This document shows positions 4,866-21,880 of a stretch of DNA of 64,000 bases, in pieces; positions within the stretch are counted from its first letter, which is position 1, and each line of letters starts with the position of its first letter. The stretch is taken from positions 62,001 to 126,000 of the forward strand of contig NZ_JAQTLY010000006.1 in the NCBI RefSeq assembly GCF_028714655.1, given 5' to 3'. The translations under genes and the position numbers were made by a program. The notes under the pieces were generated by a model, which searched no databases, was not told the DNA's origin, and saw nothing but the letters and a program-made list of their open reading frames with translations. Source of the DNA: Sulfurimonas sp. (GTDB lineage: Bacteria; Campylobacterota; Campylobacteria; Campylobacterales; Sulfurimonadaceae).

Positions 4866-5519
4866 GTGGCTAAAAAATCCGTATGGAGTGATAATCGCTT
4901 CTGGCAACGCTCAGCAGCATGGATCACAGGGTTTGCATCAGTTCTTCTCATTTGGTTGACATTTGATACAAGTGGACAAATTTCAATGGGAAATGATTCA
5001 GATTTAAAAAATGGTGTAACGAAAAGGGTTCCAGGACCTACAGTTATTAATTATAAAATTACTTATGAAATGGACAAGAAGCGTCAGCATGAAGTTCCTG
5101 TAATTGGTGAAAAAGAGAAATTTTTCGGAAGAGATGATTACTCAGAAGAAGAAGCTGCAAAATTGCTTCACTTAGGTAAATTAGGTTCACAAACTAAAAA
5201 CTGTATGAATTGTCATACACTTCTTGGAAATGGCGCATATTATGCTCCGGACTTAACAAAAGCTTGGTTAGATCCGGCATGGGGTCCAACTGGATCAATG
5301 CAAGCTATGACTGGAAAAAGTACAAAAGAAGAAGCTATGGCTGAATTCTTACAACATCCGTCTCAATACCCTACTCACGCTCGTATGATGCCAAATCTTG
5401 GTATTACTGCTGAAGAGGCTAAAGGTTTAGTTGCTTTCTTAAAACATATGTCATCAATTGATACAAATGGTTTCCCAAGAAATTTTGGAAAAATACAAGG
5501 AGCAGTAAATGGCAAATAG
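4866..5519 (+). CDS. norC: nitric oxide reductase cytochrome c subunit NorC
   Basis: The 217-residue haem c subunit that passes electrons to NorB for 2 NO + 2 e- + 2 H+ to N2O + H2O. It has an N-terminal membrane anchor (about residues 16-33), then a periplasmic domain with one haem motif C113-MN-C116-H117 in the NorC-typical context CHTLLGNGAYYAPDL, and a likely methionine ligand in the RMMPNLG segment. The start is GTG with a strong AGGAGG site. It overlaps norB by 11 bp. It is slightly longer than NorC of pseudomonads (about 146 residues), owing to a longer loop (about 40-105) between anchor and haem domain. Confidence 0.95.
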   Translation: MAKKSVWSDNRFWQRSAAWITGFASVLLIWLTFDTSGQISMGNDSDLKNGVTKRVPGPTVINYKITYEMDKKRQHEVPVIGEKEKFFGRDDYSEEEAAKLLHLGKLGSQTKNCMNCHTLLGNGAYYAPDLTKAWLDPAWGPTGSMQAMTGKSTKEEAMAEFLQHPSQYPTHARMMPNLGITAEEAKGLVAFLKHMSSIDTNGFPRNFGKIQGAVNGK

Positions 5520-6933: not shown

Positions 6934-6944
6934 GGAGAATTAAA

Positions 6945-7109
6945 ATGAATGCAATGTTTGAACCATTTACAGATTTAGTACCAAGTTTTTTCGGTACTTT
7001 GGCTCAAGGTCCGTTGACATTAACTATCTTTTTACACACTGTTATCGTACTTCCAATGATTTGGATTTACAAACAAGAGAAAGCTCGTTTAGAGCAAGAA
7101 GGTAATTAA
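6945..7109 (+). CDS. 54-residue membrane protein downstream of norB
   Basis: A short ORF directly after norB (11-bp gap) with its own strong ribosome-binding site (TAAGGAG, 8 nt before the ATG). The protein has one hydrophobic helix (about residues 22-42) followed by a charged cytosolic-type tail (YKQEKARLEQEGN). Codon use matches norB. I know no named family; it resembles the tiny single-helix subunits found with haem-copper oxidases (CcoQ-like in size and topology). It is probably a subunit or assembly factor of the nitric oxide reductase, by inference from position. Confidence 0.7.
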   Translation: MNAMFEPFTDLVPSFFGTLAQGPLTLTIFLHTVIVLPMIWIYKQEKARLEQEGN

Positions 7110-7119
7110 GTATCTAAGG

Positions 7120-7142
7120 TTGCAGGGCCCTCGGGCCCGCAA
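7120..7142 (+). terminator. GC-rich hairpin between the nor operon and nirS
   Basis: TTGC-A-GGGCCC-TC-GGGCCC-GCAA folds into a 10-bp stem with one bulged A and a minimal loop. It is strikingly GC-rich for this genome. No clear T-run follows (AAAATATCTATTTTA), so it may be a partial terminator or an mRNA-stabilising hairpin that separates nor and nirS levels. Confidence 0.6.
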
Positions 7143-7169
7143 AATATCTATTTTAGAAGGAGAAATAAA

Positions 7170-8810
7170 ATGAGATTAAACAAATTAGTTATGTCTGTTG
7201 CTGCAATGGCAGTAGTTACTTCAGGTTTAATGGCTGATTCATCAGCTATGGATGTTGAAAAAGTATTTGAGAAAGAGTGTCAAGGTTGCCACGGTCCAAA
7301 CCATGAGGGTGGTGTTGGTTCAGATTTGCGTCCAGCCGTAACAGCTAAGAAAAATGCTTATGACCTTTCAAATACTATTTTAAATGGTAAAGCAGGAACT
7401 GCAATGCCAGGATTTAAAGAGAAATTCTCTAAAGCTGATGCTGATAAAATGGTTGATTATATCCAACACTTTAAAGGTAAAAAGATTGATCAACTTACGC
7501 TTGAAGCAGTAAAAGGCGGTTGGAAAAACCTTAACGATAGAATGGAATTCTTCAAAAAATACCCAAATCCGGCTGATGTTAAGAAAAACACTGATATCTG
7601 TTTCGTAACAGAAAGAGATGCTGAGCGTGTTGCATTCGTTGACGGTACAAACGGTAAAATTTTATCTAAGCACCCTGCTGGTTTCGCTGTGCATGTTACA
7701 GTTACTAACAAGCGTCAGCCTCGTTATGCTTACTCAATCTCTCGTTCAGGTTTAGTAACAATGTTCGACTTAAATACTCCGGGTCAACAAAAAATTGCTG
7801 AGTGTCAAGTTGGATCTGAGTCTCGCGGTCTTGCAGTTTCTCCGGACGGTAAATTCCTAATGGCTGGTAACTATGTACCGGGCGGAGCTGTTCTAATGGA
7901 CGCTATGACTCTTGAGCCGTTAAAAGTTTACCCGACATCAAGCGTTATCAAACCAAACGGTGACATCGATTCATCTCGTGTTGCAGGTATATTCGACACT
8001 CCATACGGTCCTTATATTGCATTCGCACTTAAAGACGGTGGACATGTTTATATCATAGATTACTCTAAGCCAAACTATCCAATCGTTGGAGATATTCCAA
8101 ACATCGGAGATATTCTTCATGATGGTTTCTTAAATGAAGGTAAAGAGATTGGTCGTTACCTATTTATCGCTTCTCAAGGAAGTGATGTTGTTGGTGTTGT
8201 AGACTTTAAAACTAAATCTTTAGTTACAAAAATCTATACAGGTCCGGCATCTAAGCCACACCCTGGTCAAGGTTCTTCTTGGTTTAACGAAACTCTAGGT
8301 CAACAACTTGGAGCAACGGTTAACATGAACTTAGGTCAAGTAACTATTTGGGATGATCACTTTGATGTTATTCGTCACATTCCAACAGGTGGTGGCGGTC
8401 TATTCATCGGTACATCTGAGCATACTCCGTTCTTATGGGCAGACAATGTACTTGGATCAAGCGATGTTTGGAATCAAGTTCACTTGATCAACAAACAAAC
8501 TCTTGAGCTAGACAGGATTATTACTGTCGGTACAACTGAAGGTACAGTTACGGATCCTGTAACTCATAAAGTTCTATACAAATGGGAAGTTCCGACTGTT
8601 AAAGATGCTAAAGGTGTTGCAGTAGTTCCTAGAATTCTTCACGCTGAGCCGGCAAATCACGGTCACTGGACTATGATTTCTGAGTGGAATGCAGGTCGTA
8701 TCGGTATTTACGAAGCGACAACAGGTAAATTTGTTAAATACATCACTGGTTTAACAACTCCTACTTTCACTTACTCAATCGAGCACAGACAAACTATTCC
8801 AGGTGCATAA
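7170..8810 (+). CDS. nirS: cytochrome cd1 nitrite reductase NirS
   Basis: A 546-residue periplasmic nitrite reductase (nitrite to NO). A signal peptide covers about residues 1-22, followed by a cytochrome c domain with C37-QG-C40-H41, then an eight-bladed haem d1 propeller. The PHPG motif with H364 fits the first active-site histidine of NirS. The second is less clear: the GGGGLFIGTSEH segment (H418) has its histidine shifted by two residues relative to Pseudomonas as I remember it. NirN has the same architecture and is an alternative, but the position after norCB, the strong Shine-Dalgarno (AGAAGGAG) and highly biased codons favour the enzyme. Confidence 0.92.
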   Translation: MRLNKLVMSVAAMAVVTSGLMADSSAMDVEKVFEKECQGCHGPNHEGGVGSDLRPAVTAKKNAYDLSNTILNGKAGTAMPGFKEKFSKADADKMVDYIQHFKGKKIDQLTLEAVKGGWKNLNDRMEFFKKYPNPADVKKNTDICFVTERDAERVAFVDGTNGKILSKHPAGFAVHVTVTNKRQPRYAYSISRSGLVTMFDLNTPGQQKIAECQVGSESRGLAVSPDGKFLMAGNYVPGGAVLMDAMTLEPLKVYPTSSVIKPNGDIDSSRVAGIFDTPYGPYIAFALKDGGHVYIIDYSKPNYPIVGDIPNIGDILHDGFLNEGKEIGRYLFIASQGSDVVGVVDFKTKSLVTKIYTGPASKPHPGQGSSWFNETLGQQLGATVNMNLGQVTIWDDHFDVIRHIPTGGGGLFIGTSEHTPFLWADNVLGSSDVWNQVHLINKQTLELDRIITVGTTEGTVTDPVTHKVLYKWEVPTVKDAKGVAVVPRILHAEPANHGHWTMISEWNAGRIGIYEATTGKFVKYITGLTTPTFTYSIEHRQTIPGA

Positions 8811-8817
8811 TTTGCAC

Positions 8818-8839
8818 TTTCTCTCCTTCGGGGGAGAAA
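8818..8839 (+). terminator. hairpin after nirS with UUCG loop
   Basis: TTTCTCTCC-TTCG-GGGGAGAAA forms a 9-bp stem (one G-U pair) capped by the very stable TTCG tetraloop, starting 8 bp after the nirS stop. It is not followed by a T-run, so it may stabilise the nirS 3' end as well as terminate. It separates nirS from nirC-nirJ-nirF-nirE. Confidence 0.65.
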
Positions 8840-9011
8840 CATCTATCTAAAATACTCAATTAATAACAATAATAAAATCCTGATAAATATCCGTAAATCG
8901 CCTACTTATACATAAATATACAATCTATATAAAATTTATAATTTTTGACATTTATAAGCCATAATTCAAGCTTTGTTTAGTTAAAATAGTGCATCAAACG
9001 AGAGAAAAATT

Positions 9012-9317
9012 ATGAAAAAAAATATATTAATAGTCATTAGTTTAGTTTCATTACTATCTGCAAATGAGTTGGACGGAAAAAAGATTTTTGAGACCTATTG
9101 TTGGGGTTGCCATCACCAGACCGCAGTTGCATTTGGTCCTCCATTTAGTGAAATCGCTCAAAAAAGAACAAATGAAGAGATTCAAGCATATATATTAAGC
9201 CCCGAATCTATGTATAAAGCTTTCGGATATAAGCGAACGGTTATGACAAAAATAGATTTAGCGGATAAAGAGAGAGAAGCTATTGCAAAATATATACTCT
9301 CATATAAAGGTAAATAA
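9012..9317 (+). CDS. nirC: periplasmic monohaem cytochrome c (NirC-like)
   Basis: A 101-residue class I cytochrome c with a signal peptide (about 1-17) and one haem motif CWGCH near residue 31; a methionine in the C-terminal half (TVMTKID) could be the sixth ligand. Its stop codon overlaps the nirJ start (TAATG), placing it first in the haem d1 gene set. By position it corresponds to NirC, which donates electrons to NirS or to d1 maturation. The symbol is given on context, because small cytochromes of this kind cannot be separated by sequence alone. Confidence 0.75.
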   Translation: MKKNILIVISLVSLLSANELDGKKIFETYCWGCHHQTAVAFGPPFSEIAQKRTNEEIQAYILSPESMYKAFGYKRTVMTKIDLADKEREAIAKYILSYKGK

Positions 9318-10438
9318 TGTTTAGACTTTCAAACCTTATATCCTCGGTAGTTGAGGGAAAGCCTGAAAGGGTGCTTAACGGCTCTATTGCCATATGGAAT
9401 TTTACGAATCGCTGCAATTTATCATGTCTTCACTGTTATTCAAAATCAACATTGGATGAAGTCGATACGCTTACAACAGAACAAATTAAAAAAACAATTT
9501 TGGAGATGAAAGAAAACGGTGTGAAGTTTATCATCTTCTCAGGCGGAGAGCCGTTAACCAGAAAAGACCTCTTTGAAATTGCCGATTTTTGCAAAGCAAA
9601 CGGAATTATTACATATCTATCCAGCAACGGTCTCTATTTTACTTCAAGCAATGTACAAAGAATCGTAGATACATTTAATTATGTCGGCGTAAGTATAGAC
9701 GGTGATGAACCTACGCATGATCACTTTCGAGGGCTAAAAGGCGCTTTTAGAGAAACTCTCAAAGCCGTGCAGCTTGCAAATGCTACAGGCGCAAAGGTCG
9801 GTATTCGTTTTACAATTACCAAAGAGACGATAGATTCGTTGGAGTATATTTTTGATCTTGCCGAGAGAGAAAATATTCCAAAAATATATATATCCCATCT
9901 TGTATACTCAGGACGCGGTTTAGATAATCTAAAAATGGACTTATCAAAAGAGCAGAGAAGAAAATCGGTAGAGTTTATACTTGACAAAGCATTTGAGTAC
10001 TACAAGACCGGCAGAGATATTGAGATAGTAACGGGCAATATGGAGCAGGATGCTATTTTATTTTTGGATAGATTCGCCAAAGAGTATCCGGAGCTAAAAG
10101 AGACAATGCGCGAACGATTGGTTAGCTGGGGCGGGAACAGTGCAGGACGCAAACTTTTAAATATAAACAGCGAAGGGGATGTCCGCCCTGACCCATTTTT
10201 TCCTATAACCGTAGGAAATATCATAAAGCAAAATTTCGGTGATATTTGGAAGAACGGAGAGCTACTTGATCAGCTTCGAATTCACCCAAGAAAACAAATA
10301 GGCGGAATTTGCAGCGAGTGTGAACAAATAGATATCTGCAATGGCGGGTCAAGAGCAAGAGCTTATGCAATTACCGGAGATTTGTGGAGTGAAGATCCGT
10401 CATGTTATTTAACCCAGCAAGAAAGAGAGAAACATTAA
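9317..10438 (+). CDS. nirJ: haem d1 biosynthesis radical SAM protein NirJ
   Basis: A 373-residue radical SAM enzyme. The [4Fe-4S] cluster motif C33-x3-C37-x2-C40 is followed by SGGEPLTRKDL (SAM-binding GGE motif). A C-terminal cysteine-rich SPASM-like region (CSECEQIDIC from about residue 332) can hold a second cluster. In haem d1 synthesis NirJ removes propionate side chains from didecarboxysirohaem to introduce the d1 carbonyls. It overlaps nirC by one base and nirF by one base (TAATG), so these form one operon. Related AhbC/AhbD proteins are alternatives, but the nir context settles it. Confidence 0.93.
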   Translation: MFRLSNLISSVVEGKPERVLNGSIAIWNFTNRCNLSCLHCYSKSTLDEVDTLTTEQIKKTILEMKENGVKFIIFSGGEPLTRKDLFEIADFCKANGIITYLSSNGLYFTSSNVQRIVDTFNYVGVSIDGDEPTHDHFRGLKGAFRETLKAVQLANATGAKVGIRFTITKETIDSLEYIFDLAERENIPKIYISHLVYSGRGLDNLKMDLSKEQRRKSVEFILDKAFEYYKTGRDIEIVTGNMEQDAILFLDRFAKEYPELKETMRERLVSWGGNSAGRKLLNINSEGDVRPDPFFPITVGNIIKQNFGDIWKNGELLDQLRIHPRKQIGGICSECEQIDICNGGSRARAYAITGDLWSEDPSCYLTQQEREKH

Positions 10439-11574
10439 TGAGTATAAACAAATTTTTAGTAGGAGCTTCATTAATTGGAGTATTTTTTATAAATGCACAC
10501 GCAAAAGGGGTTAATCCGGTACTTGCGGCACTAAAAGGCGATGAGAAAATATTTGTCGTTGAGAGAGAGAGCGAATCTTTAGCAATTATAGAGCAAGGTA
10601 TGCCAAAAGGTCGAATATCCGGAATGCACAATATGAACCACGGCGTTGTAAAATTTATTGATAAAGACGGTTATGTTATTTCACGCGACGGTTACATCGT
10701 AAAATTTGACCCAGAGAATGAAAAAATAGTTAAAGAGTACAAAACCAGTGACAGTGCAATAGGCTTTACTATAGAAAAAAATTATATAGCCGTTGCGAAC
10801 TATGCAAAAAAAAGCGTCGATATTTTAGACAGAAATTTAAACCCGATTCAATCATTTGAGACAGGTTCAAAAAATGTCGGTATAAAAACATATAAAGATT
10901 ATCTGGTTTTTTCTCAAATGGACAATGACAAAATCACGGTGCTTAAAGATAAAAACGGCGGCAAAGGTCTTCCTAAATTTGAAATTTACAAAGAGTTTAA
11001 GGATGTCGGGGTAATGCCTTTTGATGCGATGATAAAAGATAACAATTTTATAACCGGATTTTTTAAAAGTGACTTTTTCGGTGTTGTAAACCTTGACACT
11101 ATGGAGTATACAAAAATCAAAATTTTGCTTGAAGACAGAAAACCCGTACTTAAAGTTCCGCATTTCGGATTTTGGAGTATAAGCGACGGCAATGTATTCA
11201 TTCCTGCAGTCGGAGATAACAAGGTTTTAGTCTATACATCCGACTTTAAATTTGTAAAAAATATTGAAACAGAGGGTCTTCCGGTATTTACGGCTCTAAG
11301 TCCGGACAAAAAATATATGGCGGTAACATTTAGCGGCGATAAGTTTCCTGTTGTTCAGATTATAGACACTCAAACTCTTGAAATTATAAAAAGATTTGAA
11401 TTTGACGGAAAAGTTCTACATGCAAGATGGTCAAATATGCGTCCTAATCTTTATATATCGGTAAACGACACAAATAAGATTTCTGTTATAAACACAAAAG
11501 AGTGGTATGTTGCGCGAGAACTGTTTAATGTAAACAAACCATCAGGCATATTTATTTACGAAGAGGCTAAGTAA
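10438..11574 (+). CDS. nirF: haem d1 biosynthesis protein NirF
   Basis: A 378-residue propeller protein related to the d1 domain of NirS but without a cytochrome c domain. It has an N-terminal signal peptide (about 1-22). NirF is a periplasmic dehydrogenase-like factor acting on a late d1 precursor. The start chosen is the ATG at 10438, which overlaps the nirJ stop (TAATG); an upstream in-frame ATG at 10402 lies inside nirJ and would bury the signal peptide. The gene's last base is shared with the nirE start. NirN, which finishes d1 in pseudomonads, is not seen nearby. Confidence 0.9.
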   Translation: MSINKFLVGASLIGVFFINAHAKGVNPVLAALKGDEKIFVVERESESLAIIEQGMPKGRISGMHNMNHGVVKFIDKDGYVISRDGYIVKFDPENEKIVKEYKTSDSAIGFTIEKNYIAVANYAKKSVDILDRNLNPIQSFETGSKNVGIKTYKDYLVFSQMDNDKITVLKDKNGGKGLPKFEIYKEFKDVGVMPFDAMIKDNNFITGFFKSDFFGVVNLDTMEYTKIKILLEDRKPVLKVPHFGFWSISDGNVFIPAVGDNKVLVYTSDFKFVKNIETEGLPVFTALSPDKKYMAVTFSGDKFPVVQIIDTQTLEIIKRFEFDGKVLHARWSNMRPNLYISVNDTNKISVINTKEWYVARELFNVNKPSGIFIYEEAK

Positions 11575-12314
11575 TGGGTAAGGTTTATTTAACGGGTGCA
11601 GGTCCGGGAGATATAGAGCTGCTGACTCTCAAGGCTCTTAGAGTAATTAAAGAGGCAGATGTAATTATTTACGATCGTTTAGCCAACCCTGATATTTTAG
11701 AAGAAGCTAAGAGCGGGTGTGAGTTTGTTTATGTAGGCAAAGAAGACGGCAGACACATTGTCCCTCAAGACGATATCAATGAAGTTATCTATCAAAATGC
11801 TCTAAAACATGAAAATGTGGTTCGCTTAAAAGGCGGTGATCCGTTTGTATTTGGTCGCGGCGGTGAAGAAGCGCTCTATCTGTATGAGCGTGGCGTTGAG
11901 TTTGAGATAATTCCCGGTATAACATCTGCGATAAGTGCGCCTGCTTATGCGGGTATCCCTGTAACTCATCGCGGCGTATCTGTAAGTTTTAGAGTCGTAA
12001 CGGGGCATGAATCTCCAAATAAAAAAGAGTCTCAAATTCCTTGGGATACTTTTAAAACAGATGATACCATCGTATTTTTAATGGGACTGCACAATCTTCC
12101 AAAAATATCTAAAAAACTTATGGAAATCGGTAAACCAAGCAGTTATCCTTGTGCCGTAATTTCAAGAGGAACAACAAAGCATCAAAGCGTCGTTGTAGGA
12201 ACACTGGAAAATATAGTTGAAAAAACAAAAGATGTTCCTACTCCTGCCCTTATAGTCGTCGGAAGAGTCGTTGAGCTTAGAGATCAACTAAAATGGTTTG
12301 GGGAAAATGTCTAA
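11574..12314 (+). CDS. nirE: uroporphyrinogen-III C-methyltransferase (NirE/CobA)
   Basis: A 246-residue SUMT enzyme that uses two SAM molecules to convert uroporphyrinogen III to precorrin-2, the first committed step toward sirohaem and haem d1. Motifs include VYLTGAGPGD near the N-terminus, VRLKGGDPFVFGRGGEE and GIPVTHRG. It lacks any CysG dehydrogenase/ferrochelatase domain. The overlap with nirF and position in the nir operon support NirE, but it could also serve sirohaem or cobalamin synthesis elsewhere in the cell. Confidence 0.9.
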   Translation: MGKVYLTGAGPGDIELLTLKALRVIKEADVIIYDRLANPDILEEAKSGCEFVYVGKEDGRHIVPQDDINEVIYQNALKHENVVRLKGGDPFVFGRGGEEALYLYERGVEFEIIPGITSAISAPAYAGIPVTHRGVSVSFRVVTGHESPNKKESQIPWDTFKTDDTIVFLMGLHNLPKISKKLMEIGKPSSYPCAVISRGTTKHQSVVVGTLENIVEKTKDVPTPALIVVGRVVELRDQLKWFGENV

Positions 12315-13833
12315 ACCGCTTAACACTTCAGAAGCAGTGCTCATTGCCCCAAACATTTACTGGGTGGGCATGCATCTAAAAGATGACCCTTTTCAATGCC
12401 ACTCATATCTGATTAAAAACGGCAATGAATCAATTTTAATCGACCCCGGCTCTATGATTGAGTTTAATGAGACGGTTAGAAAAATAAAAAGCATTGTAGA
12501 TATCTGCTCTATTAAATATATTATATTGCACCATCAAGACCCGGATTTGGCAGCAGCCGTACCCGAGATAGAAAAACTAATCAATAGAGATGACCTTCTT
12601 ATAGTTACCCATTCCAGAATGTCGCTTTTAATCAAACACTATATGGTAACCTCCAAGTATTACGAAATAGACAAACAAAACAATCAGCTCATAACTTCCG
12701 GCGGGCTTAAACTTGATTTTCTAACAACCCCGTATTGTCACTCTCCGGGTGCCTTTGTAAGCTATGAACCGATTTCAAAAGTTCTTTTTTCAGGCGATAT
12801 TTTCGGGGGAATTGAAGAATCTTGGGAGTTTTATGCGGATGAAACCTATTTTCTAAAAGCAAAACAGTTTCATCAAGAGTATATGCCGAGCAAAGATATC
12901 TTCAATTATGCATTAGGCAAAATAGAGAAGCTCGATATAGATTTGATAGCTCCCCAACACGGTTCGGTGATAGAGAAAAAATATATTGCTTCTTTAATAA
13001 CGGATATGAAAAATCTTGATTGCGGACTCTATATAGAAGAGAAATATAATCGTGAATTGATAGACACGATTGAAGAGCTGCAAAGAAAAAAACAAGATTT
13101 AAAAGAACGGGATTTGTTACTGTTTGAGCAATCCAAAAGAGCAGAAATCGGCGAGATGATCGGAAATATAGCTCATCAGTGGCGTCAGCCTCTGGCGATA
13201 ATAAATACATCCATAGCAATACTAAAAGAGAAAAACAGAGCAAATCTGCTAAGCAAAGAAGAGATAGCCGATAAACTGGAAAAAATGGAAAAACGCGTTG
13301 TATATATGTCTGAAACCATAGAAGATTTTATGGGTTATTATAGTCCAGATAAAGAGAAATCTTGGTTTAGGGTTTGCGATGCCATAGAGAGATCCATTGA
13401 CATCGTAAATTTGCAACAAGACAGCAAGGGAACTAAAGTAAATCTTTTGCTTGAGAGCGAATATAAAATTTACGGACTTATGAATGAGTTCATACAAGTA
13501 ATAGTTTCCATTTTGTCAAATATAAACGATTTAATTACGATAAAAAATCTAACCGACACAAACATTACTATTGCGCTGCATAAAAACAGCGATTATACAA
13601 CCATTGCAATATCAGATAATTGCGGCGGGATAGAAGAGAGTAACTTGAGTAAAATATTTGATCCCTACTTTACGACAAAACATAAATCTATGGGAACCGG
13701 ACTTGGACTGCACATCGCAAAAATGATTATAGAAGATAATATGAACGGGTTTTTGAGTGCAAAAAATATCTACAATACCAAAAATGAAAAAATTGGCGCT
13801 GAATTTACTATAAAGGTAAAAAATGAATATTGA
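12307..13833 (+). CDS. ODP (diiron) domain sensor histidine kinase
   Basis: A 508-residue fusion. Residues 1-235 are a metallo-beta-lactamase-fold ODP domain with all six diiron ligand positions: H76, D78, D80, H145, D164, H218, spaced almost as in flavodiiron proteins (where the second is usually Glu). A coiled coil (about 240-275) leads to a histidine kinase with H290 in AHQWRQPL, then ATPase motifs DNCGG and GTGLGLHIA. It has no membrane segment, so it is cytosolic. Start is the ATG with GGGG just upstream, overlapping nirE by 8 bp; it overlaps the regulator by 11 bp. It likely senses O2 or NO for denitrification control. Confidence 0.88.
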   Translation: MSKPLNTSEAVLIAPNIYWVGMHLKDDPFQCHSYLIKNGNESILIDPGSMIEFNETVRKIKSIVDICSIKYIILHHQDPDLAAAVPEIEKLINRDDLLIVTHSRMSLLIKHYMVTSKYYEIDKQNNQLITSGGLKLDFLTTPYCHSPGAFVSYEPISKVLFSGDIFGGIEESWEFYADETYFLKAKQFHQEYMPSKDIFNYALGKIEKLDIDLIAPQHGSVIEKKYIASLITDMKNLDCGLYIEEKYNRELIDTIEELQRKKQDLKERDLLLFEQSKRAEIGEMIGNIAHQWRQPLAIINTSIAILKEKNRANLLSKEEIADKLEKMEKRVVYMSETIEDFMGYYSPDKEKSWFRVCDAIERSIDIVNLQQDSKGTKVNLLLESEYKIYGLMNEFIQVIVSILSNINDLITIKNLTDTNITIALHKNSDYTTIAISDNCGGIEESNLSKIFDPYFTTKHKSMGTGLGLHIAKMIIEDNMNGFLSAKNIYNTKNEKIGAEFTIKVKNEY

Positions 13834-14512
13834 AAAAATAAAAGATATCTCCATTTTATTGGCAGAAGATGAAACAGAACTTCGTGAATCGCTTTATGAA
13901 TATCTGCAAATATTTTTTAATCGTATCTATACCGCAGAGTGCGGATATAAAGCGTATGACATCTATAAGCAAAAGAGACCGCATATTATTTTAACCGATA
14001 TAAATATGCCAAATTTAGACGGTTTGGATATGATTGCCAAGATAAGAAAGGATGATAAAGATACAAAGATTATTGTTATGAGTGCGCACTCTGAACAAGA
14101 AAAATTGTTAAAAGCAATCAAACTTCATCTTGAAACATACTTAATCAAACCGATAAAGATGGACACCTTAAAAAAAATATTACTTGAAACGGTAGAGTTA
14201 ATCAGAAAAACGACTAATCGCACTTATGTCTCTGATAATATATATTGGGATAATTCAACAAATACTCTTTGGCATGACTCTAAAGAGATAAAACTTAGAA
14301 AAATGGAAAATTCACTCTTAAAATTACTTTTTTCACAGCCGAACCGCTGTTTTGCAGCAAAAGATATTTTTGAACATCTTCATGAAGAAAAAAATAACAA
14401 AGATTTTTCAACTCATGCTATAACATCCCTTATGAAGCGAATTCGTACAAAACTGCCGCAAGACATAATTCAAAATATTTACGGCTCAGGTTATAAAATA
14501 GTCTCTATCTAA
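13823..14512 (+). CDS. OmpR-family response regulator
   Basis: A 229-residue two-domain regulator. The receiver domain has acidic residues AEDE near 15, the phosphoacceptor D59 in LTDINMPNLDG, and the KP pair near 111 (LIKPIK). The C-terminal winged helix (about 135-229) is of the OmpR/PhoB type (RKMENSLLKLLF, ITSLMKRIRTKL, IYGSGYKI). It overlaps the ODP kinase gene by 11 bp and is surely its partner. Its targets are probably nir, nor or related respiratory genes, by inference from location. Confidence 0.92.
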   Translation: MNIEKIKDISILLAEDETELRESLYEYLQIFFNRIYTAECGYKAYDIYKQKRPHIILTDINMPNLDGLDMIAKIRKDDKDTKIIVMSAHSEQEKLLKAIKLHLETYLIKPIKMDTLKKILLETVELIRKTTNRTYVSDNIYWDNSTNTLWHDSKEIKLRKMENSLLKLLFSQPNRCFAAKDIFEHLHEEKNNKDFSTHAITSLMKRIRTKLPQDIIQNIYGSGYKIVSI

Positions 14513-14572: not shown

Positions 14573-15274
14573 TTAATATTTATCTAATTCATACTTTTTG
14601 TAAAGAAGTTCCGCCTCTTTATTTCCGCTTTTTATAGCTTTTTGCGTCCATACTTTAGCTTCTTTAAATTTTTCTACTTGACAATAGATTTCTGCTAAAG
14701 CATAATATGAGTTCTCATCCCCTGCCGCCGCACTTTTTTCAAACCACTCTGCGGCTTTGTCAAAATTTAAAAGCTGCATATAGACACGCCCTACATTTTG
14801 TTGTGCGATTACATGCCCTCCGTTTGCGGCACTCTCTAAAAGTTCAGCACTTTTTGACACATTTAAATCTGCTCCGTCACCGTTATAATACATAAGCGCC
14901 AAATTGTACTGAGCGTTAGGGTTATTTTGATTTGATGAAGCACTGAGCAGTTCAAATGCTTTTTTGCTGTCTTTTTTTACATTGTTCCCGTTTAGGTAAA
15001 ACATACCCAAATCATACTGCGCATTTGCATTTGAGTTACTTGCGGATTTTTCCAGCCACTCTATTGACTTGCCGGTATCTTGTTTTGTCCCTAAACCGTT
15101 AGCATAGAGGTAACTAAGCGCGCTTTGAGCTTTTGCATCTCCGTCATTCGCACTTTTTTCATACAGTTTAAAAGCCATTGCATAATCTTTATTCTTAAAG
15201 GCTTTAAGTGCCTCATCCGTGCTTGCTTCCAAATTTAGCAACATTAAAAATCCGACTACTATATACTTAAACAT
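14573..15274 (-). CDS. Sel1-repeat (TPR-like) periplasmic protein
   Basis: A 233-residue secreted protein: signal peptide about 1-17, then at least five Sel1 repeats of about 36 residues with the consensus A...L...Y.NG.G...D..KA..W (for example AQYDLGMFYLNGNNVKKD). Sel1 proteins are scaffolds for protein contacts in the envelope; Helicobacter cysteine-rich proteins are related but this one lacks the cysteine pairs. The Shine-Dalgarno AAGGA precedes the ATG. It is the last gene, 41 bp after yceI, of the minus-strand run that starts at 20437. Confidence 0.85.
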   Translation of the reverse strand: MFKYIVVGFLMLLNLEASTDEALKAFKNKDYAMAFKLYEKSANDGDAKAQSALSYLYANGLGTKQDTGKSIEWLEKSASNSNANAQYDLGMFYLNGNNVKKDSKKAFELLSASSNQNNPNAQYNLALMYYNGDGADLNVSKSAELLESAANGGHVIAQQNVGRVYMQLLNFDKAAEWFEKSAAAGDENSYYALAEIYCQVEKFKEAKVWTQKAIKSGNKEAELLYKKYELDKY

Positions 15275-15315
15275 ATCTATCCTTAAAAAAAATTATTCGT
15301 TATTATACAATAGTT

Positions 15316-15834
15316 TTAAAATGCTGCTTTAACCAAAAGATCAACTCTGTCACGAACACACATAAAAACCATACACGGCATTTTAATACCGAAATCACTT
15401 ACTAAAATCATTGAAGCAGCCTCTATTGTAGGAGTACCGTTTGTCATTGTTATCTTTGCTTTTGCGCTTAGCGGTTTCTCTTTTCCGTGAAAATTTAGTA
15501 CTCCGTTTATAGTGTAACTATCATCTGCTTTTGTGACACTTGAGATAGTATATGTAGCCAGTTTAAATTTATCTGCCTCAACTTCCTTGTACATACTCTT
15601 ATCTCTATCACTCTTATCGCTAACAAAGAGATTCATCTCTACCCAAAACTTACCCTTAAGAGTCGTTATATCATCACCATCCATCGTTATATCGGCATGC
15701 AGAGAGTTATTTAACGGATCAATGGTACTATCCATCACCATCTCCGTATGTGCCGCAACAGAACCGCTTTTAAGTTGTAGATTTACAGCAAAAAGCGGTA
15801 GCGCCAAAAGTAGTGTCAGTAATAATTTTTTCAT
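15316..15834 (-). CDS. YceI-family periplasmic protein
   Basis: A 172-residue protein with a clear signal peptide (about 1-16) and the YceI lipocalin-like beta-barrel pattern (SGSVAAHTEMVMDS, then VNGVLNFHGKEKPLS-type strand). YceI proteins bind long isoprenoids such as quinone precursors in a hydrophobic cavity. It starts 9 bp after the preceding membrane protein gene with an AAGGA site, so it belongs to the same operon as the haem-copper-oxidase-like protein. A quinone-related role fits that context, but no substrate can be read. Confidence 0.85.
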   Translation of the reverse strand: MKKLLLTLLLALPLFAVNLQLKSGSVAAHTEMVMDSTIDPLNNSLHADITMDGDDITTLKGKFWVEMNLFVSDKSDRDKSMYKEVEADKFKLATYTISSVTKADDSYTINGVLNFHGKEKPLSAKAKITMTNGTPTIEAASMILVSDFGIKMPCMVFMCVRDRVDLLVKAAF

Positions 15835-15843
15835 TTTAATTCC

Positions 15844-16755
15844 TTAGTATAAAATTCTCGACAAAGCCAAAGTCAATCCAAATCCGGAGGCCATCCAGCC
15901 GACAAATATCATCATAAAAGCAAGTTTGGAGAGACTCATCTCTTCGCTTAAAACTCTAAAAACAACCACATTGTAGTATGAAATCGTAAAAGGATAGAAA
16001 ACCGCCAACAAAGAAGGAGAAGCAAAATAGAATAGAGAGTAACTTATTGCAAAAAGCATAGCTATTAAAAGGTGCTGCTTTATTTTTGGTATGTGGATAA
16101 AATAAGCTGCTGCCAGCCCCGCAATGTGAAAAAGAGCTATGGTAAGCGTATATTTTGACCAAATATCCAATCCCGCATGCCTTGAGAGCGTTTCAAAAAG
16201 ATTTGAGTCCAAAAGTATCCATAACACCAAGGGAATGTATGCAACAAATGGGAAAGAGACTACTTTGCTATCCACCTCAACTCTGTAATTTTTAAGAACT
16301 AATGCACTAGAGAGCGCAATTAGTGTAAAAAAAACTGCTATTAACTCTCGGTTATCCACATCATAAGTAAAAAAATATGTACCTACCGTATAGGCAATAG
16401 AAAGTGCAAAGAATAGCTCTTTTTGTTGTTTTGCTTTAAAAAGATAGATGCCCAAAGGAGCCATTGAACCGACTGCCAAACCTAAAAATAATAAAGTAAA
16501 AATATTGTAATTTGGATAAAAAAATGACAAAAACAGCTGCAAAGACAAAGCAACCATTATCTTATAGATAGGATTTTTAATGCCTCCCCAAGATATACCG
16601 CTTAACCATGTTCCAAATACTCCGCCTGCAAACATCGGAAAAAGTGTCACCAAATCGGAGTTATAATGCGCAACTATGCCTGTTTGAACAATAAGAAGAT
16701 AGTAACTTAACTCAAATCCCAACAGAAGCGATAAAGCAATAGAGTGAATTATCAT
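15844..16755 (-). CDS. polytopic membrane protein, unknown
   Basis: A 303-residue hydrophobic protein with about ten predicted membrane helices and few charged residues outside loops. It overlaps the upstream haem-copper-oxidase-like gene by 4 bp (ATGA), which usually means coupled translation and a shared complex or pathway. No family motif is recognised; some segments (GGVFGTWLSG, GWMASGFGLTLAL) recall transporter helices of the MFS kind, but the length is short for that. The likely role is as partner of the HCO-like protein, by position only. Confidence 0.6.
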   Translation of the reverse strand: MIIHSIALSLLLGFELSYYLLIVQTGIVAHYNSDLVTLFPMFAGGVFGTWLSGISWGGIKNPIYKIMVALSLQLFLSFFYPNYNIFTLLFLGLAVGSMAPLGIYLFKAKQQKELFFALSIAYTVGTYFFTYDVDNRELIAVFFTLIALSSALVLKNYRVEVDSKVVSFPFVAYIPLVLWILLDSNLFETLSRHAGLDIWSKYTLTIALFHIAGLAAAYFIHIPKIKQHLLIAMLFAISYSLFYFASPSLLAVFYPFTISYYNVVVFRVLSEEMSLSKLAFMMIFVGWMASGFGLTLALSRILY

Positions 16756-18293
16756 AAACGGCTTCTAAACATAAGATATATAAGAGCGTACGAGATATCA
16801 TAAAATCCGACAAGCAAACCAAGAGCGTCTATCGTTTGCAAATAAAACAGAGATAAAAAAACGCTCCCCGTAATCAAACGGGCAATTGCCGTTACATAAG
16901 CCAAAAAGTGCGGCTCTTTTGTTATTCCCATAAGATGTAAGATACCGACAAAGCCCATAAAGCCAAAGATTAAATAGTAGTATGGGGTAAACGAAAATCC
17001 TAAAAATTCAAATAGCAGCGGAGCAAATAAAAAAAGTATAAATGCCCCCAGACCGTCTGATGCAAATCCGCTTAGATGGTATAGCTGCAAAAGAGATAAT
17101 TTAACAATTTTCATCTTTTTAACAATATAATAAATTAACCCAAGAACTGCAACAATCCCGCCAAGAAAGCGAATCCACCACATAGAAGTAACATCTATAT
17201 TTGCAAACCCCGCCTCGCTAAAACCGGCAAGAGAGAGTGAAACAAAAATAATTGCTATGACATAGAGCCAAAATCGAATAAAGCTTTGCGGAAGTTTATA
17301 AAAATATTTCAAAACACTAAGTGCCATAAAAAATATACCAAGCCCGATGGCCACATGCGCATGAGCTACTATCAAATCATTTCTGTGAAAATGCCAGCGA
17401 ATTTCAGGGATAAAGAGTATATTTCCTTGAATCATTACAAACAAAAATGCCCAAATAGATATGACTAGGTAAGGTGTAGATTTTAAAGTTATATTTGCAT
17501 CCTTGCACCACTTTATAAGCAGCGGCGCATAGGCAAAAGTTAGCCACTGGTAAACCCACTCTTCACCGTATGAAAGCTCGCCTCTAAATATGCGGGTTGC
17601 AACGGAGAGTGCATATCCGACAAGCGGAATAATCCAAAGAAGATGCCGCTTAGGAATAAAATCCTCTTTTGCATGGAGTTTTATCATAAGGTAAAATAGA
17701 GGGATAAGGGTAAAACTCATCCCCAAAGTGTTGTCTCCGTGAGGTCCGATAAGACTCTTTTCAACTTGTCCAAATGTTGGGTTCATCAAAACCAAAAGTG
17801 CCAAAGGTGCCGCAAAAAGAAGCGTTTTTGAAACTTTTACCCAAAGCGGAGTAACTTCATAATGTATAATCATTTTAAAAATAGCAACTATATAAAAAAT
17901 GCCCGAAGCGGCAAGTATAAAGTTTAACTCATACGCAAAATCATAAAAAGGCAATCCTCTTTGAACACCCAGAAAAATTGAGACGGTTGCCATAAATAAA
18001 AAGAGATGCCATAGTAAAAAGTAATTCTTTAGCGGCTCTACCGCATCACTCAAATCCAACCCTTCTTTTGCAAAAAGAGCAAAGGGAAGAAGTGAGAGTG
18101 CGAGCATAATCGGTCCATAAAGCATCAAAGTTATATGAAGCGAACGAGTCGTTGAGGGATTTAGCAAAGTACTATTTAAAAACTCGGCTCCCAAAAGTTG
18201 AGCCGCAAAAATAACGCCGACTAGGATAGAGCCTAAAAATATAAAAGCCCATACAGGAACAACCCCGTAAACCAGTTTATAAAATTTGTCCAT
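16752..18293 (-). CDS. haem-copper oxidase subunit I-like protein lacking the CuB His pair
   Basis: A 513-residue protein with about 12-14 membrane helices. It shows the haem-ligand pattern of subunit I: H53 in SLHITLMLYG (low-spin haem), H185 in GPHGDNTLGMSF (where cbb3 enzymes have WYGHN, one CuB ligand), and H311/H313 in VAHAHVAIGLG (high- and low-spin haem). The His-His pair expected about 50 residues after H185 is missing: that region reads VATRIFRGEL. CuB binding, and so ordinary O2 or NO reduction, is doubtful. It overlaps its neighbours by 17 and 4 bp and sits with an ABC exporter, a YceI protein and two unknowns. Confidence 0.75.
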   Translation of the reverse strand: MDKFYKLVYGVVPVWAFIFLGSILVGVIFAAQLLGAEFLNSTLLNPSTTRSLHITLMLYGPIMLALSLLPFALFAKEGLDLSDAVEPLKNYFLLWHLFLFMATVSIFLGVQRGLPFYDFAYELNFILAASGIFYIVAIFKMIIHYEVTPLWVKVSKTLLFAAPLALLVLMNPTFGQVEKSLIGPHGDNTLGMSFTLIPLFYLMIKLHAKEDFIPKRHLLWIIPLVGYALSVATRIFRGELSYGEEWVYQWLTFAYAPLLIKWCKDANITLKSTPYLVISIWAFLFVMIQGNILFIPEIRWHFHRNDLIVAHAHVAIGLGIFFMALSVLKYFYKLPQSFIRFWLYVIAIIFVSLSLAGFSEAGFANIDVTSMWWIRFLGGIVAVLGLIYYIVKKMKIVKLSLLQLYHLSGFASDGLGAFILFLFAPLLFEFLGFSFTPYYYLIFGFMGFVGILHLMGITKEPHFLAYVTAIARLITGSVFLSLFYLQTIDALGLLVGFYDISYALIYLMFRSRL

Positions 18294-18900
18294 CTTTTAA
18301 CCTAATGATTTTAGTTGCATAATTTTGTATCTGCATATCGTGAGAAGCTACCACAACCGTTGTGCCGTTTTTTTGTGCATTTTGCAGCAGTTCATATACG
18401 ATTGTGCTGTTTTTTGAATCCAAACTGCCCGTAGGTTCATCCGCAAAGATGATTTTTGGTTCGTTTACAAGTGCACGGGCAACTGCAACTCTTTGTCTCT
18501 GTCCGCCCGAAATCTCGTTTGGATAGCGGGATGAGAGTTCCAAAATACCAAGCTCATCAAGTATCTTGTTTATATTTTCTCTTTTATTATCCATTGCGGC
18601 TAATGCAATATTTTCATATACGCTTAAATAATTTATAAGATAATGAAACTGAAAAACAAAGCCTATCTTGCTTTGGCGAAAATGGTCTATATTTTTGATT
18701 TTATCAACCGCCTCTGCGTCTATCAAAAGCTCTCCGTTTGAGGGTTTTAAAAGCGTTGACAAAATAGAGAGAAGCGTTGATTTTCCGCTTCCGCTCTCTC
18801 CGCTTAAAAAGAGAAACTCACCGCTTTTTATCTGAAATGTGAGGTCAAATAACACTTGTTCACTACCGTAAAAATGTGAAATATTTGATGCTTGTATCAT
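18277..18900 (-). CDS. ABC transporter ATP-binding protein (LolD/MacB type)
   Basis: A 207-residue ABC ATPase. Walker A is [12 protein letters not shown], the signature is [15 protein letters not shown], Walker B is IIFADEPTG and the D-loop SLDSKN follows; the TGSLDS form is typical of the LolD/MacB/FtsE group that powers FtsX-like permeases. The start at 18900 is preferred over an ATG at 18906 because AAGGA lies 5 nt before it and it overlaps the permease stop as ATGA. It pairs with the permease encoded immediately upstream. It also overlaps the HCO-like gene by 17 bp. Confidence 0.9.
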
Positions 18901-19970
18901 GCGCATCCTTGATTTATAAGCAAAATCGGGTCTGTTTTAGAAGCTATCCAAGCAGGAAAGAGTGAACCTAAAAGCGCCATAAAGAGCGTTGAAGCTAAAA
19001 CATAGATAGCAGTTGAGAGAGAGAGCGTCCCGTTTACATACCCTTGAAGCATCTCTATATGAGGCAAAAGTGCCAAAATCCCAAGACTAAGAAAGAGTGC
19101 GAACAGATATGCGGAAAAACTCATAACAAGTGTTTCAAAAAATAGATTTTTTATGATAAAAAATCGGCTCTTGCCAAGTGCGCGCATTATACCGAACTCC
19201 TCTTTGCGGGAATTTACAATCATGCTCATAACCGAAGCAATACCCATTAAACCCATAGCAAAAGCAAGGGTAGATATAACAATAGATGAATTTTCGATTA
19301 TTTTAAACTGGTTGTACTCTTTTACAAAGTTCTGTGTTGTTTTTGCCTCTATTTGACTATCCATCCGAGAGATTTTTTTAACTATCTCATCTATTTCGTT
19401 AGGCAAATTTGATGAAACCAAAATAAAAGAGGCGGAACGGTTAAAGAGCGTACCCGCATCTGCTACATTCATAACGACTCCGCCCTCTTCAAAACCTATA
19501 TCGCTGCTGTATATACCCGAGATTTCAAAATTTTTGTTTCCTATATTTATATTTTTTGTTGCAAATTGCTTAGCTAGATTTTCACCTAAAATAACTTCAC
19601 CAACTCTAGGATATCTCCCGCTTGAGAGTTTGTAGTGAGAAAAATGGTTGGCAGTCGTTCCGTAAATGCCCGCAATAGGGATATGCCCAATCGGGGAAGC
19701 TCCTACTATCATGGCATAGCTTGAACTTACATGCTCTAGTTTATCTATCTCACCCATCAAAGCAATATCTACATTTGAGAAAAAAGTATCCGAAATTCCT
19801 TTTTGCGTGATGATGATATCTCCATCCGTTTTAATCATCTTGGAGTACATCCCGATAATGCCCTGCGAAACGGAGCTGATGAGAAAAATTGCCATTACCG
19901 CGATAGTAATAGATGAAAATATCAACAGACTTTTAAAAGGATTTTTACTAAGCGCTTTTAACGATATCAC
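18897..19970 (-). CDS. ABC transporter permease, FtsX/MacB family
   Basis: A 357-residue permease with the MacB/LolC layout: one N-terminal helix (about 12-33), a large periplasmic domain (about 34-225) and three C-terminal helices with the conserved cytosolic segment SRKEEFGIMRALG. Such transporters extract lipoproteins or export small molecules and proteins without moving substrate through the membrane. The start is GTG, overlapping the upstream stop (GTGA). Cargo is unknown; the periplasmic and membrane proteins of the same operon are possible clients. Confidence 0.87.
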   Translation of the reverse strand: MISLKALSKNPFKSLLIFSSITIAVMAIFLISSVSQGIIGMYSKMIKTDGDIIITQKGISDTFFSNVDIALMGEIDKLEHVSSSYAMIVGASPIGHIPIAGIYGTTANHFSHYKLSSGRYPRVGEVILGENLAKQFATKNINIGNKNFEISGIYSSDIGFEEGGVVMNVADAGTLFNRSASFILVSSNLPNEIDEIVKKISRMDSQIEAKTTQNFVKEYNQFKIIENSSIVISTLAFAMGLMGIASVMSMIVNSRKEEFGIMRALGKSRFFIIKNLFFETLVMSFSAYLFALFLSLGILALLPHIEMLQGYVNGTLSLSTAIYVLASTLFMALLGSLFPAWIASKTDPILLINQGCA

Positions 19971-20437
19971 TTCTCAATCGCTTTTTTCAGCTCTTCTTTT
20001 GTTGAGATATATGAGATATTTTTAATTATGGAGTTTTCTACATACAAAAGCGTAACTCTGTCATCTTTACTTGGGACGACTTCCTCAAATCTTTCATCAT
20101 TGCTTATATATATAGGATGTTTATATTTTCTAAGTTTTGGCAGAGCAAACATTTTGGTAACGATAGTCGGCATCTTGTTTATATCTGCGATAAAAACAGC
20201 GCGATTTTTTTGCAGATAATCCGGACTTTGACTATCTAAATACTCATTGACTAAAGCTCCCGTCGCCTTTTGGGAAGAGACGATTACAAGTTTTACATCT
20301 TTTGGTATTTTAACTGCGATATCATTTGGCGTAACATATTTATACTCATTGAGTCTTGCTACATAAGAGTTTGGCTGTAAAAAATCAGCATTTAAAATCG
20401 AGACACAAAACAGGAAAAACAAAAAAACTCTACTCAT
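19967..20437 (-). CDS. secreted protein, possible thioredoxin-like fold
   Basis: First gene of the HCO-like/ABC operon: a 156-residue protein with a signal peptide (about 1-17) and a strong AAGGAG site. The mature part alternates strands and helices (VKLVIVSSQKATGALV, AVFIADINKMP, DRVTLLYVE, STKEELKKAIEK) like a thioredoxin fold, but there is no CxxC, the only cysteine being in the signal peptide. The family is not recognised. A YtfJ-like periplasmic protein is one guess. Confidence 0.6.
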   Translation of the reverse strand: MSRVFLFFLFCVSILNADFLQPNSYVARLNEYKYVTPNDIAVKIPKDVKLVIVSSQKATGALVNEYLDSQSPDYLQKNRAVFIADINKMPTIVTKMFALPKLRKYKHPIYISNDERFEEVVPSKDDRVTLLYVENSIIKNISYISTKEELKKAIEK

Positions 20438-20477: not shown

Positions 20478-21224
20478 CTAATTGATTGTTAATACCGTTA
20501 TTTCGCTTTGAGCCTTATATCTAATATTCAAACCCCAATATCCGACTCCGTTGCTAACATACAAAACTGTTTTTTTATACAGATAAAGACCGCTGAAATA
20601 GGGTTGAAAAAGTTTAACGAATAGACTAAAAGGATATATCTGCCCGCCGTGGGTATGTCCGCTTAGTTGAACATCGACACGGTGAGAACCGATATGCTCT
20701 ATATCCTTTGGCTGATGAGCAAGAAGAATTGTGGGCAAATTTGGGTCAAGCTTTGAAAAAAGCTCTTTTATGGGTCGCTTGATTTTGCGTAAAAAACTAT
20801 ATCTATCGCTAAGCCCGATTAGCTGCAACTCAAAATCTTTAATTTGCAACTTTACTATTTCATTGTCCAAACAGATAATATTGCTCTCATTCATCGCCGC
20901 CTGCAACTCTTTTACACCGTAAACTATATCATGATTACCGGTCACGAAATATGCTTTTGCCTCCAAACTTTTAAAAACTTCTATCTGCTCTTTTACACGC
21001 AAAGCTTTTGTTTGAATTATATCTCCGGTAAAAACTATAATATCCGGCTTTTGCTCGTTTATTTTTTTAACCAATGTCTTAAGATAATCGACATTGACCT
21101 TTTTAGTAAGATGCAAATCCGATAGTTGAATGATACGAAGCCCGCAAAACGACTCAAAAAAACTTTGATTTTTTATGTTGACTTCTTTAAAAGGAAAATA
21201 GTTCCAACCAACTTGTAAAGACAC
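20478..21224 (-). CDS. metallophosphoesterase (YkuE/YaeI-like)
   Basis: A 248-residue calcineurin-like phosphoesterase. Metal-binding motifs occur in order: QLSDLHL (near 34), FTGDI (near 65), GNHD (near 97), LLAHQP (near 168) and SGHTHGGQ (near 189). The arrangement and the GHTHGGQ ending match the YkuE/YaeI group, some of which act on lipid phosphates such as UDP-diacylglucosamine. The start is GTG with AGG upstream. It lies 40 bp before the HCO-like operon on the same strand and may or may not be cotranscribed. Confidence 0.85.
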   Translation of the reverse strand: MSLQVGWNYFPFKEVNIKNQSFFESFCGLRIIQLSDLHLTKKVNVDYLKTLVKKINEQKPDIIVFTGDIIQTKALRVKEQIEVFKSLEAKAYFVTGNHDIVYGVKELQAAMNESNIICLDNEIVKLQIKDFELQLIGLSDRYSFLRKIKRPIKELFSKLDPNLPTILLAHQPKDIEHIGSHRVDVQLSGHTHGGQIYPFSLFVKLFQPYFSGLYLYKKTVLYVSNGVGYWGLNIRYKAQSEITVLTIN

Positions 21225-21289: not shown

Positions 21290-21880
21290 ATGAAATATTT
21301 AAAATTAATTACCGGTTTACTTCTTGTTATTGTTATGTTCTCAGGTTTTTGGTCGGGGAAGAGTGAAAAAGAGATAAAAGAGGATAACCGCAAAGAGAGA
21401 ACGGAGCGCATAAAGATGAGCAATGAAACACTGCAGTTGCTATATAAATATGCCCCGGAAGCAAAAGATATGATACTTCGTTCCTACGGGTATGCAACAT
21501 TTAGCAATGCAGGGGTTAACTTTATTCTTTTCTCGGCAGAGGGCGGCAAAGGGATGGCACACAATAACAGAACAGGAATAAACACCTATATGAATATGGC
21601 TTCAGGAGGCGTAGGGCTTGGTCTTGGTGTTAAAGATTTCAGAGCTATATTTTTATTTGAAAATAAAAATGCATATGACAGTTTCGTAAACAGCGGCTGG
21701 GAAGCAAATGCGCAAGCAGACGCCGCTGCAAAATATAAAGAGAGCGGCGGAGCGGCAAATGCCGCAGAGACGGTTGCACCGGGAATTAGACTTTACAAAT
21801 TGACACAAAGCGGACTTGCACTTCAAGTGACTGTTCAAGGTACAAAATATTGGAAAGATGAGGACTTAAACAAAAACTAA
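21290..21880 (+). CDS. SYLF/YSC84-domain lipid-binding protein
   Basis: A 196-residue protein with an N-terminal hydrophobic segment (about 5-22) that could be a signal or anchor. The rest fits the SYLF (YSC84) domain: GYATFSNAGVNFILFSAEGG, a glycine-rich strand (ASGGVGLGLGVKDFRAIFLFE) and a final AGIRLYKLTQSGLALQ-like strand. SYLF domains bind phosphoinositides or other membrane lipids; the bacterial role is poorly known. It is divergently oriented from the phosphoesterase gene. Confidence 0.8.
   Translation: MKYLKLITGLLLVIVMFSGFWSGKSEKEIKEDNRKERTERIKMSNETLQLLYKYAPEAKDMILRSYGYATFSNAGVNFILFSAEGGKGMAHNNRTGINTYMNMASGGVGLGLGVKDFRAIFLFENKNAYDSFVNSGWEANAQADAAAKYKESGGAANAAETVAPGIRLYKLTQSGLALQVTVQGTKYWKDEDLNKN

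Follow-up and report, generated by a model that had tools for sequence, protein, structure and literature searches.

In a 64-kb window of a Sulfurimonas sp. draft genome (2.19 Mb; by "window" we mean the whole stretch of DNA analysed), a set of minus-strand genes is built around a 513-amino-acid protein, here named HCOL, which has the predicted fold of subunit I of the haem-copper oxidases (HCO) and keeps the His residues of both haem sites, yet has lost the ligands of the copper ion, CuB. Its gene is always accompanied by genes for two predicted transporters and nearly always by one for a lipid-binding protein of the YceI family. Because the CuB residues are lost while those for the haems are kept in this constant company, we suggest that an oxidase fold has been re-used for a non-respiratory job in environmental relatives of Campylobacter.

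An oxidase fold with the CuB ligands lost

The only Pfam family to match HCOL is COX1, at 20 bits against a gathering cut-off of 34.8, and the NCBIfam models gave nothing up to E = 1. Homologues were aligned (28 sequences, later 79, the latter 42–90% identical to the protein of the window), and AlphaFold (AF2) was run on the alignment of 79. The resulting model has a predicted local distance difference test score (pLDDT) of 89.5 and a predicted template modelling score (pTM) of 0.86, and in it residues 1–396 superpose on the 12-helix HCO subunit I; a structure prediction, which the initial annotation had proposed as a check on this protein, thus returns an HCO fold. With VIA-align the model matched the cytochrome c-dependent nitric oxide reductases (cNOR; 4xyd, Z 27.0, root-mean-square deviation (rmsd) 4.0 over 374 aligned residues; 3o0r, Z 26.7), the cbb3 oxidases (9g6b, Z 26.6; 3mk7, Z 26.1) and, with a lower score, the bovine enzyme (1occ, Z 19.4), and the best Foldseek match was also a cbb3 oxidase (6xkw, E 2e-8). 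From such lists of structural matches we used only the presence of a family as evidence. Profile-profile comparison gave E 5e-5 over 373 columns for the cbb3 subunit CcoN and 0.0028 for NorB. Residues 397–513 form four further helices, outside the span of the structural matches.

To place individual residues, HCOL was aligned with CcoN, NorB, gNOR (the Sulfurimonas-type NO reductase) and CoxA in three MAFFT modes, and in all three H53, H303, H311 and H313 fall on His residues of these proteins. In those families, the low-spin haem ligands stand at the positions of H53 and H313, the high-spin haem ligand at that of H311, and a His eight residues upstream of it at that of H303. The sequences are thus consistent with a bis-His low-spin haem (H53 in transmembrane helix (TM) 2, H313 in TM10) and with a proximal His for a high-spin haem (H311), in 79 of 79 cases. 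The residues invariant throughout the 79 are H53, H185, D187, R234, E245, H303, H311, H313 and H453. The initial annotation had listed H53, H185, H311 and H313 as kept, which is borne out, and H303 and H453 add to its list; as to H185, however, the residue is not at the position of the first CuB His.

The CuB site is the defining feature of haem-copper oxidases, and it is here that HCOL departs from them. Two modes align the adjacent His of the CuB site with T233-R234, the remaining one with A232-T233, and both placements lie in the VATRIFRGEL segment that had been pointed out here. Across the 79 sequences, position 233 varies (T in 15, H in 16, I in 21, Y in 24, and E, W and C in one each), whereas position 234 is R in every one. 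For the first CuB His of CcoN, two modes give D187 as the counterpart and the remaining one gives a gap; as far as the alignments tell, this His was most likely replaced by the invariant Asp. HCOL has neither the TM7 His pair with the TM6 His of a CuB or FeB site nor the three His and one Glu that ligate FeB in cNOR and quinol-dependent NOR (qNOR). Judged in this way, the CuB metal ligands are lost in every aligned member, with an invariant Asp and an invariant Arg at two of the three ligand places, and D187 and R234 could form an ion pair in the distal pocket.

HCOL is an HCO-fold protein, yet by the defining test of the superfamily it is not a haem-copper oxidase, and proteins of its type should be left out of any count of terminal oxidases or NO reductases. 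With all haem ligands kept over deep divergence and the metal ligands gone from every member, the family offers a natural experiment on the fold without CuB.

A conserved and old gene set

We read 107 loci, of which 95 have distinct HCOL proteins; 69 of these extend at least 3.5 kb on both sides and are referred to as full-context loci. Counting same-strand neighbours within 6 kb, the ABC permease, the ABC ATPase and the membrane protein MP303 accompany HCOL in all 69, and the YceI protein in 68 (other counts in Table 1). Gene order varies by group, MP303-YceI standing ahead of the permease in some and Sec156 at either end, so the genes have stayed together although their order was reshuffled. 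The dN/dS of the HCOL gene is 0.09–0.11 against four relatives, and this, together with the 69/69 synteny, rules out an artefact or a decaying gene and dismisses chance: the gene set is conserved and old.

In the window, the seven minus-strand genes from Sec156 to the Sel1-repeat protein lie where the initial annotation had put them, and the overlaps that it gave among the first five (4, 4, 17 and 4 bp) hold as well: Sec156/permease 4 bp, ATPase/HCOL 17 bp, HCOL/MP303 4 bp, and for permease/ATPase the 4 bp require the ATG in the ATGA at 18900 as start of the ATPase (with the first ATG, at 18906, the overlap is 10 bp). Gaps of 9 bp and 41 bp separate MP303 from YceI and YceI from Sel1. Its operon needs revision at both ends, though, since Sel1 (9 of the 69 loci) is a local neighbour outside the core set, and a metallophosphoesterase gene, 40 bp upstream of Sec156 on the same strand, had been missed and belongs to the conserved set (43 of the 69). 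The phosphoesterase gene is the probable start of the operon because the next gene upstream (21290–21880) lies on the opposite strand.

Table 1. Genes and features of the HCOL gene set in the window, with the number of the 69 full-context loci in which each neighbour was found.
Feature	Coordinates	Strand	Loci (of 69)	Basis and remarks
Metallophosphoesterase, calcineurin-like	20478..21224	(-)	43	PF00149; probable first operon gene
Sec156, secreted 156-aa protein	19967..20437	(-)	51	no Pfam match
ABC permease, MacB_PCD periplasmic domain and FtsX domain	18897..19970	(-)	69	Pfam
ABC ATPase, FtsE/LolD/MacB-like	18277..18906 (start maybe 18900)	(-)	69	Pfam ABC_tran, 121.5 bits
HCOL, 513-aa HCO-like protein: HCO subunit I fold (1-396) and C-terminal four-helix extension (397-513)	16752..18293	(-)		model, alignments
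HCOL codons 231-238 (VATRIFRG), aligned position of the CuB His pair (T233 and invariant R234)	17580..17603	(-)		
MP303, membrane protein, compact MFS-like fold, without Pfam family	15844..16755	(-)	69	model, profile
YceI-family lipocalin-like protein, secreted, divergent subfamily	15316..15834	(-)	68	Pfam
Sel1-repeat secreted protein	14573..15274	(-)	9	local neighbour only

The survey of other Campylobacterota that had been proposed found HCOL in 29 of 199 genomes of the order (one, G152, with a fragment only) and as a strong match in 60 of 397 genomes of the phylum; this last number is what remains of 70 matching genomes after removal of 10 that have only hits of E 1e-4 to 1e-3, taken for ordinary oxidases. 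A wider collection of 84,980 species was scanned with two short peptides as query, and the titles of the best 80 of 104 relatives are either Campylobacterota or broader and possibly mislabelled ("Proteobacteria bacterium", L083; "Helicobacter cetorum", L085). Sulfurospirillum, Poseidonibacter, Malaciobacter and Arcobacter are the genera named among these 80. Plasmids gave no match. Restriction of the module to the Campylobacterota is likely.

Two broken HCOL copies (G456:C1:1208646-1210187, with eight in-frame stops, and G382:C85:14527-16071, with one) indicate that the module can be lost. At one further locus (L043) MP303 is in two pieces. At another, on a contig edge (L033, G152:C366:5-625), HCOL 236–285 is joined to MP303 profile positions 156–313, apparently in one 220-aa frame, which looks like a deletion remnant or an assembly artefact.

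The partner proteins

The initial annotation knew of no name for this set, and indeed HCOL and MP303 match no named family model above cut-off. MP303, its unnamed membrane protein, gave a model of pLDDT 94.3 with the fold of the major facilitator superfamily (MFS; Z 24.4 to EfpA, rmsd 3.5, 296 aligned residues), though with 11 predicted long helices rather than 12, and neither MFS nor any other Pfam family was matched among 65 members at E 0.01. Of 199 genomes, a profile of MP303 matched precisely the 29 that have HCOL. It was built with the loci of 28 of the 29 (the window included) already in hand, so the informative part of this co-occurrence is the absence of MP303 from the other 170 genomes.

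The permease has both a MacB_PCD and an FtsX domain and does not form a single ATPase-permease chain of the MacB type; the ATPase scored below the cut-offs of every NCBIfam model listed. The YceI protein is a member of its lipocalin family by Pfam (53.5 bits against a cut-off of 23.7), and the profile of the module copies matches solved YceI structures, including that of E. coli (1y0g). These copies are nonetheless divergent, with E values of ~1e-13 to 1e-21, whereas in many of these genomes the main YceI reaches ~1e-45. Sec156 gave no match, in Pfam or elsewhere; to the eye it resembles a thioredoxin that lacks conserved Cys.

No CxxCH motif occurs in any of the eight operon proteins of the window, and none of the module proteins there matches cytochrome b561 (PF01292). 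A same-strand CxxCH open reading frame lies within the span of the module at 4 of the 107 loci, and at one of them we take the frame for a genuine gene, coding for a small protein with a single CxxCH between MP303 and YceI (L052:5809-6330), which resembles cytochrome P460.

A possible function and its rivals

Tentatively, and as a possibility rather than a probability, we propose that HCOL is a CuB-free dihaem-b electron-transfer protein that serves the YceI lipocalin and two transporters for a hydrophobic ligand, the operon being an envelope redox-and-transport module. Menaquinol is proposed as the electron donor because the operon encodes no cytochrome c partner. Since neither haem site has lost its residues, quinol can probably deliver electrons that pass from a putative low-spin haem b (H53/H313) to a putative high-spin haem b (H311). 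As the CuB ligands are absent, neither the four-electron reduction of O2 nor the usual coupling of NO is likely. The distal pocket would be metal-free and lined by the Asp/Arg pair D187 and R234, with H185 near, and the acceptor would be a hydrophobic ligand (an isoprenoid quinone or an oxidised lipid), not O2. The MacB/FtsX-like ABC transporter and the MFS-fold protein would shuttle this ligand between membrane and periplasm, where the YceI lipocalin would carry it.

HCOL would thereby take the role of cytochrome b561 in the pair LcoA/BcnA. In Burkholderia, bcnA (YceI) is encoded with lcoA (cytochrome b561), and the pair is described as limiting lipid peroxidation, with mutants that peroxidise more; that BcnA-bound quinone is re-reduced by LcoA is put forward there as a suggestion of the authors (PMC9113575). 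The adjacent yceI-yceJ genes of E. coli make the same pairing. As to a replacement of b561 by HCOL at the level of whole genomes, searches of 120 genomes with PF04264 and PF01292 were too noisy to show complementarity, PF01292 matching in 110 of them. A redox role gains from this precedent of a YceI protein beside a haem-b membrane protein, and from the lipid-linked neighbours EptA and DgkA described below. The initial annotation had favoured a membrane redox or quinone-handling function over a terminal oxidase; the second half of this claim holds, as we rejected a terminal oxidase, the protein having no CuB ligands and its operon no cytochrome c subunits, and a quinone-handling or other membrane redox role is plausible but unproven.

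It is tempting to go further and picture an HCO subunit I turned electron-supplying subunit, in which a CuB-free dihaem-b core with an Asp-Arg pair at the place of the metal would be permanently joined to the MacB/FtsX-type ABC transporter, the MFS-fold protein and YceI in a complex that extracts an isoprenoid quinone or oxidised lipid, reduces it and delivers it across the periplasm. We regard this fuller picture as doubtful; if true, the superfamily would have a branch outside respiration, and the HCOL machine would be a lipid transporter driven by redox reactions.

Several points weigh against an electron-transfer role. The quinol site of HCOL is assumed, the binding of haem, quinol and lipid is predicted, and it is from the YceI family alone that the ligand is taken, while one full-context locus (L050) has no adjacent YceI. 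The model is weakest at about residues 161–190 (block pLDDT 74, 57 and 66), which makes the geometry of H185 and D187 unsure. No metabolic correlate was found, NosZ scoring above cut-off in 12 of the 29 HCOL genomes and in 63 of the 170 others. Finally, a two-component pair near the module matches metal-type models below cut-off and may belong to EptA-DgkA.

These points leave room for other readings, among which a small-molecule reductase, acting on peroxide, NO or oxidised quinone at a CuB-free high-spin haem with a peroxidase-like pocket of D187, R234 and H185 while the transporters serve something else, is unlikely. The invariant polar residues at the distal positions would suit it, as would the norB-type gene (PF00115) in the window and the gNOR-like protein of the same genome, which one alignment of the three also shows with Asp as its first ligand residue, but the operon lacks a donor subunit and the presence of HCOL does not follow denitrification: one HCOL genome (G021) has CcoN as its sole COX1 match, another (G020) has HCOL, CcoN and a single 94-position match below cut-off, and NosZ is not linked to HCOL. 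We think it quite unlikely that HCOL is instead a haem-based sensor of O2, NO, CO or redox state, acting as a receptor-like subunit of the membrane complex to gate the ABC transporter. Such a sensor would profit from the open distal side expected on the H311 haem, and the 17-bp overlap with the ATPase gene and the company of permease and ATPase in 69 of 69 loci agree with it; however, it would have no soluble output domain, and the low-spin haem ligands H53 and H313, kept for electron input in 79 of 79 sequences, exceed what a gas sensor needs.

That the protein is a mere scaffold, a former oxidase retained as membrane subunit with structural haems, would account for the loss of the CuB site and give the extra four-helix part (397–513) a use in docking, but seems very unlikely given the invariant ligands of both haems (79/79) and a dN/dS of ~0.1. 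Least of all do we expect an ordinary HCO or NOR with its metal held by H185, D187 and E245: these three are invariant in the 79 sequences, but no aligned homologue has the TM7 His pair, the COX1 score falls far short of its cut-off, and the operon has no cytochrome c subunit. Our preferred reading remains that of an electron-transfer protein, and because HCOL is linked almost without exception to a lipocalin, an MFS-fold protein and an ABC transporter, there is a concrete function to test in several named genera.

Neighbouring genes

A denitrification cluster occupies positions 4866–12314 (+) of the window; NorB was recognised there by PF00115, and NorC, NirS and the haem d1 enzymes are presumed from their sequences. 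The nir cluster ends (12298–14512) with a response regulator and a sensor kinase whose N-terminal domain has the ODP beta-lactamase fold (PF19583, 206 bits), an unusual sensor, perhaps for O2 or NO. Because of this nir/nor neighbourhood a denitrification role of the module was first suspected, and it was rejected as a general role: genes of the nir/haem-d1 stretch flank only 10 of the 107 loci (9 distinct), all of them Sulfurimonas-type copies, NosZ is unlinked, and of the 6 HCOL genomes among 30 examined for COX1, two (G020 and G021) are without a NOR-type match above cut-off.

In Arcobacter-type loci the module is followed by a response regulator and a kinase; for 7 of the 8 proteins scanned, cop/czt is the best-scoring family, though below its cut-offs, and copper regulation of the module is possible. 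After module and two-component pair, one such locus carries an EptA-type phosphoethanolamine transferase and DgkA (L056:15189-17149). Sulfurospirillum module loci have a short kinase with HAMP and HisKA domains and no ATPase domain match (L042:6259-6945; the same cluster in 9 loci).

Comparison with known systems

Among the papers that our searches listed we recognised no account of this gene set or of a CuB-less HCO of such kind; "cub" is an ambiguous search term, and an earlier description in a survey of NO reductases is possible. HCOL shares with CcoN of cbb3 and with NorB of cNOR the 12-helix core (Z 25.0–27.0), the low- and high-spin haem ligands and the His eight residues before the high-spin ligand, but at 12–16% identity it differs from both in the lack of CuB/FeB ligands, in the four extra C-terminal helices and in that its operon encodes no cytochrome c subunit. 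The gNOR enzymes have the HCO fold as well, and a single mode of the three aligns an Asp there with the first ligand position. Unlike HCOL, the gNOR-like protein of the window's own genome has retained the His pair (SHHLL), and it reaches 165.5 bits against COX1. That protein (545 aa, with SHHLL and PHFHV motifs) is encoded on contig C5 beside a 197-aa neighbour that may be the second gNOR subunit (L003:1381-3605).

On the transport side, the permease with its MacB_PCD and FtsX domains and the FtsE/LolD-like ATPase resemble MacB, LolCDE and FtsEX, but here the ATPase is separate, falls below all listed NCBIfam cut-offs, and has a gene for an HCO-fold protein beside it in every full-context locus. 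With BcnA/LcoA the module shares a gene for a secreted YceI protein adjoining that of a predicted membrane haem-b protein, whereas this membrane protein has, in its model, the fold of an HCO instead of that of a b561, and ABC and MFS-fold proteins are added.

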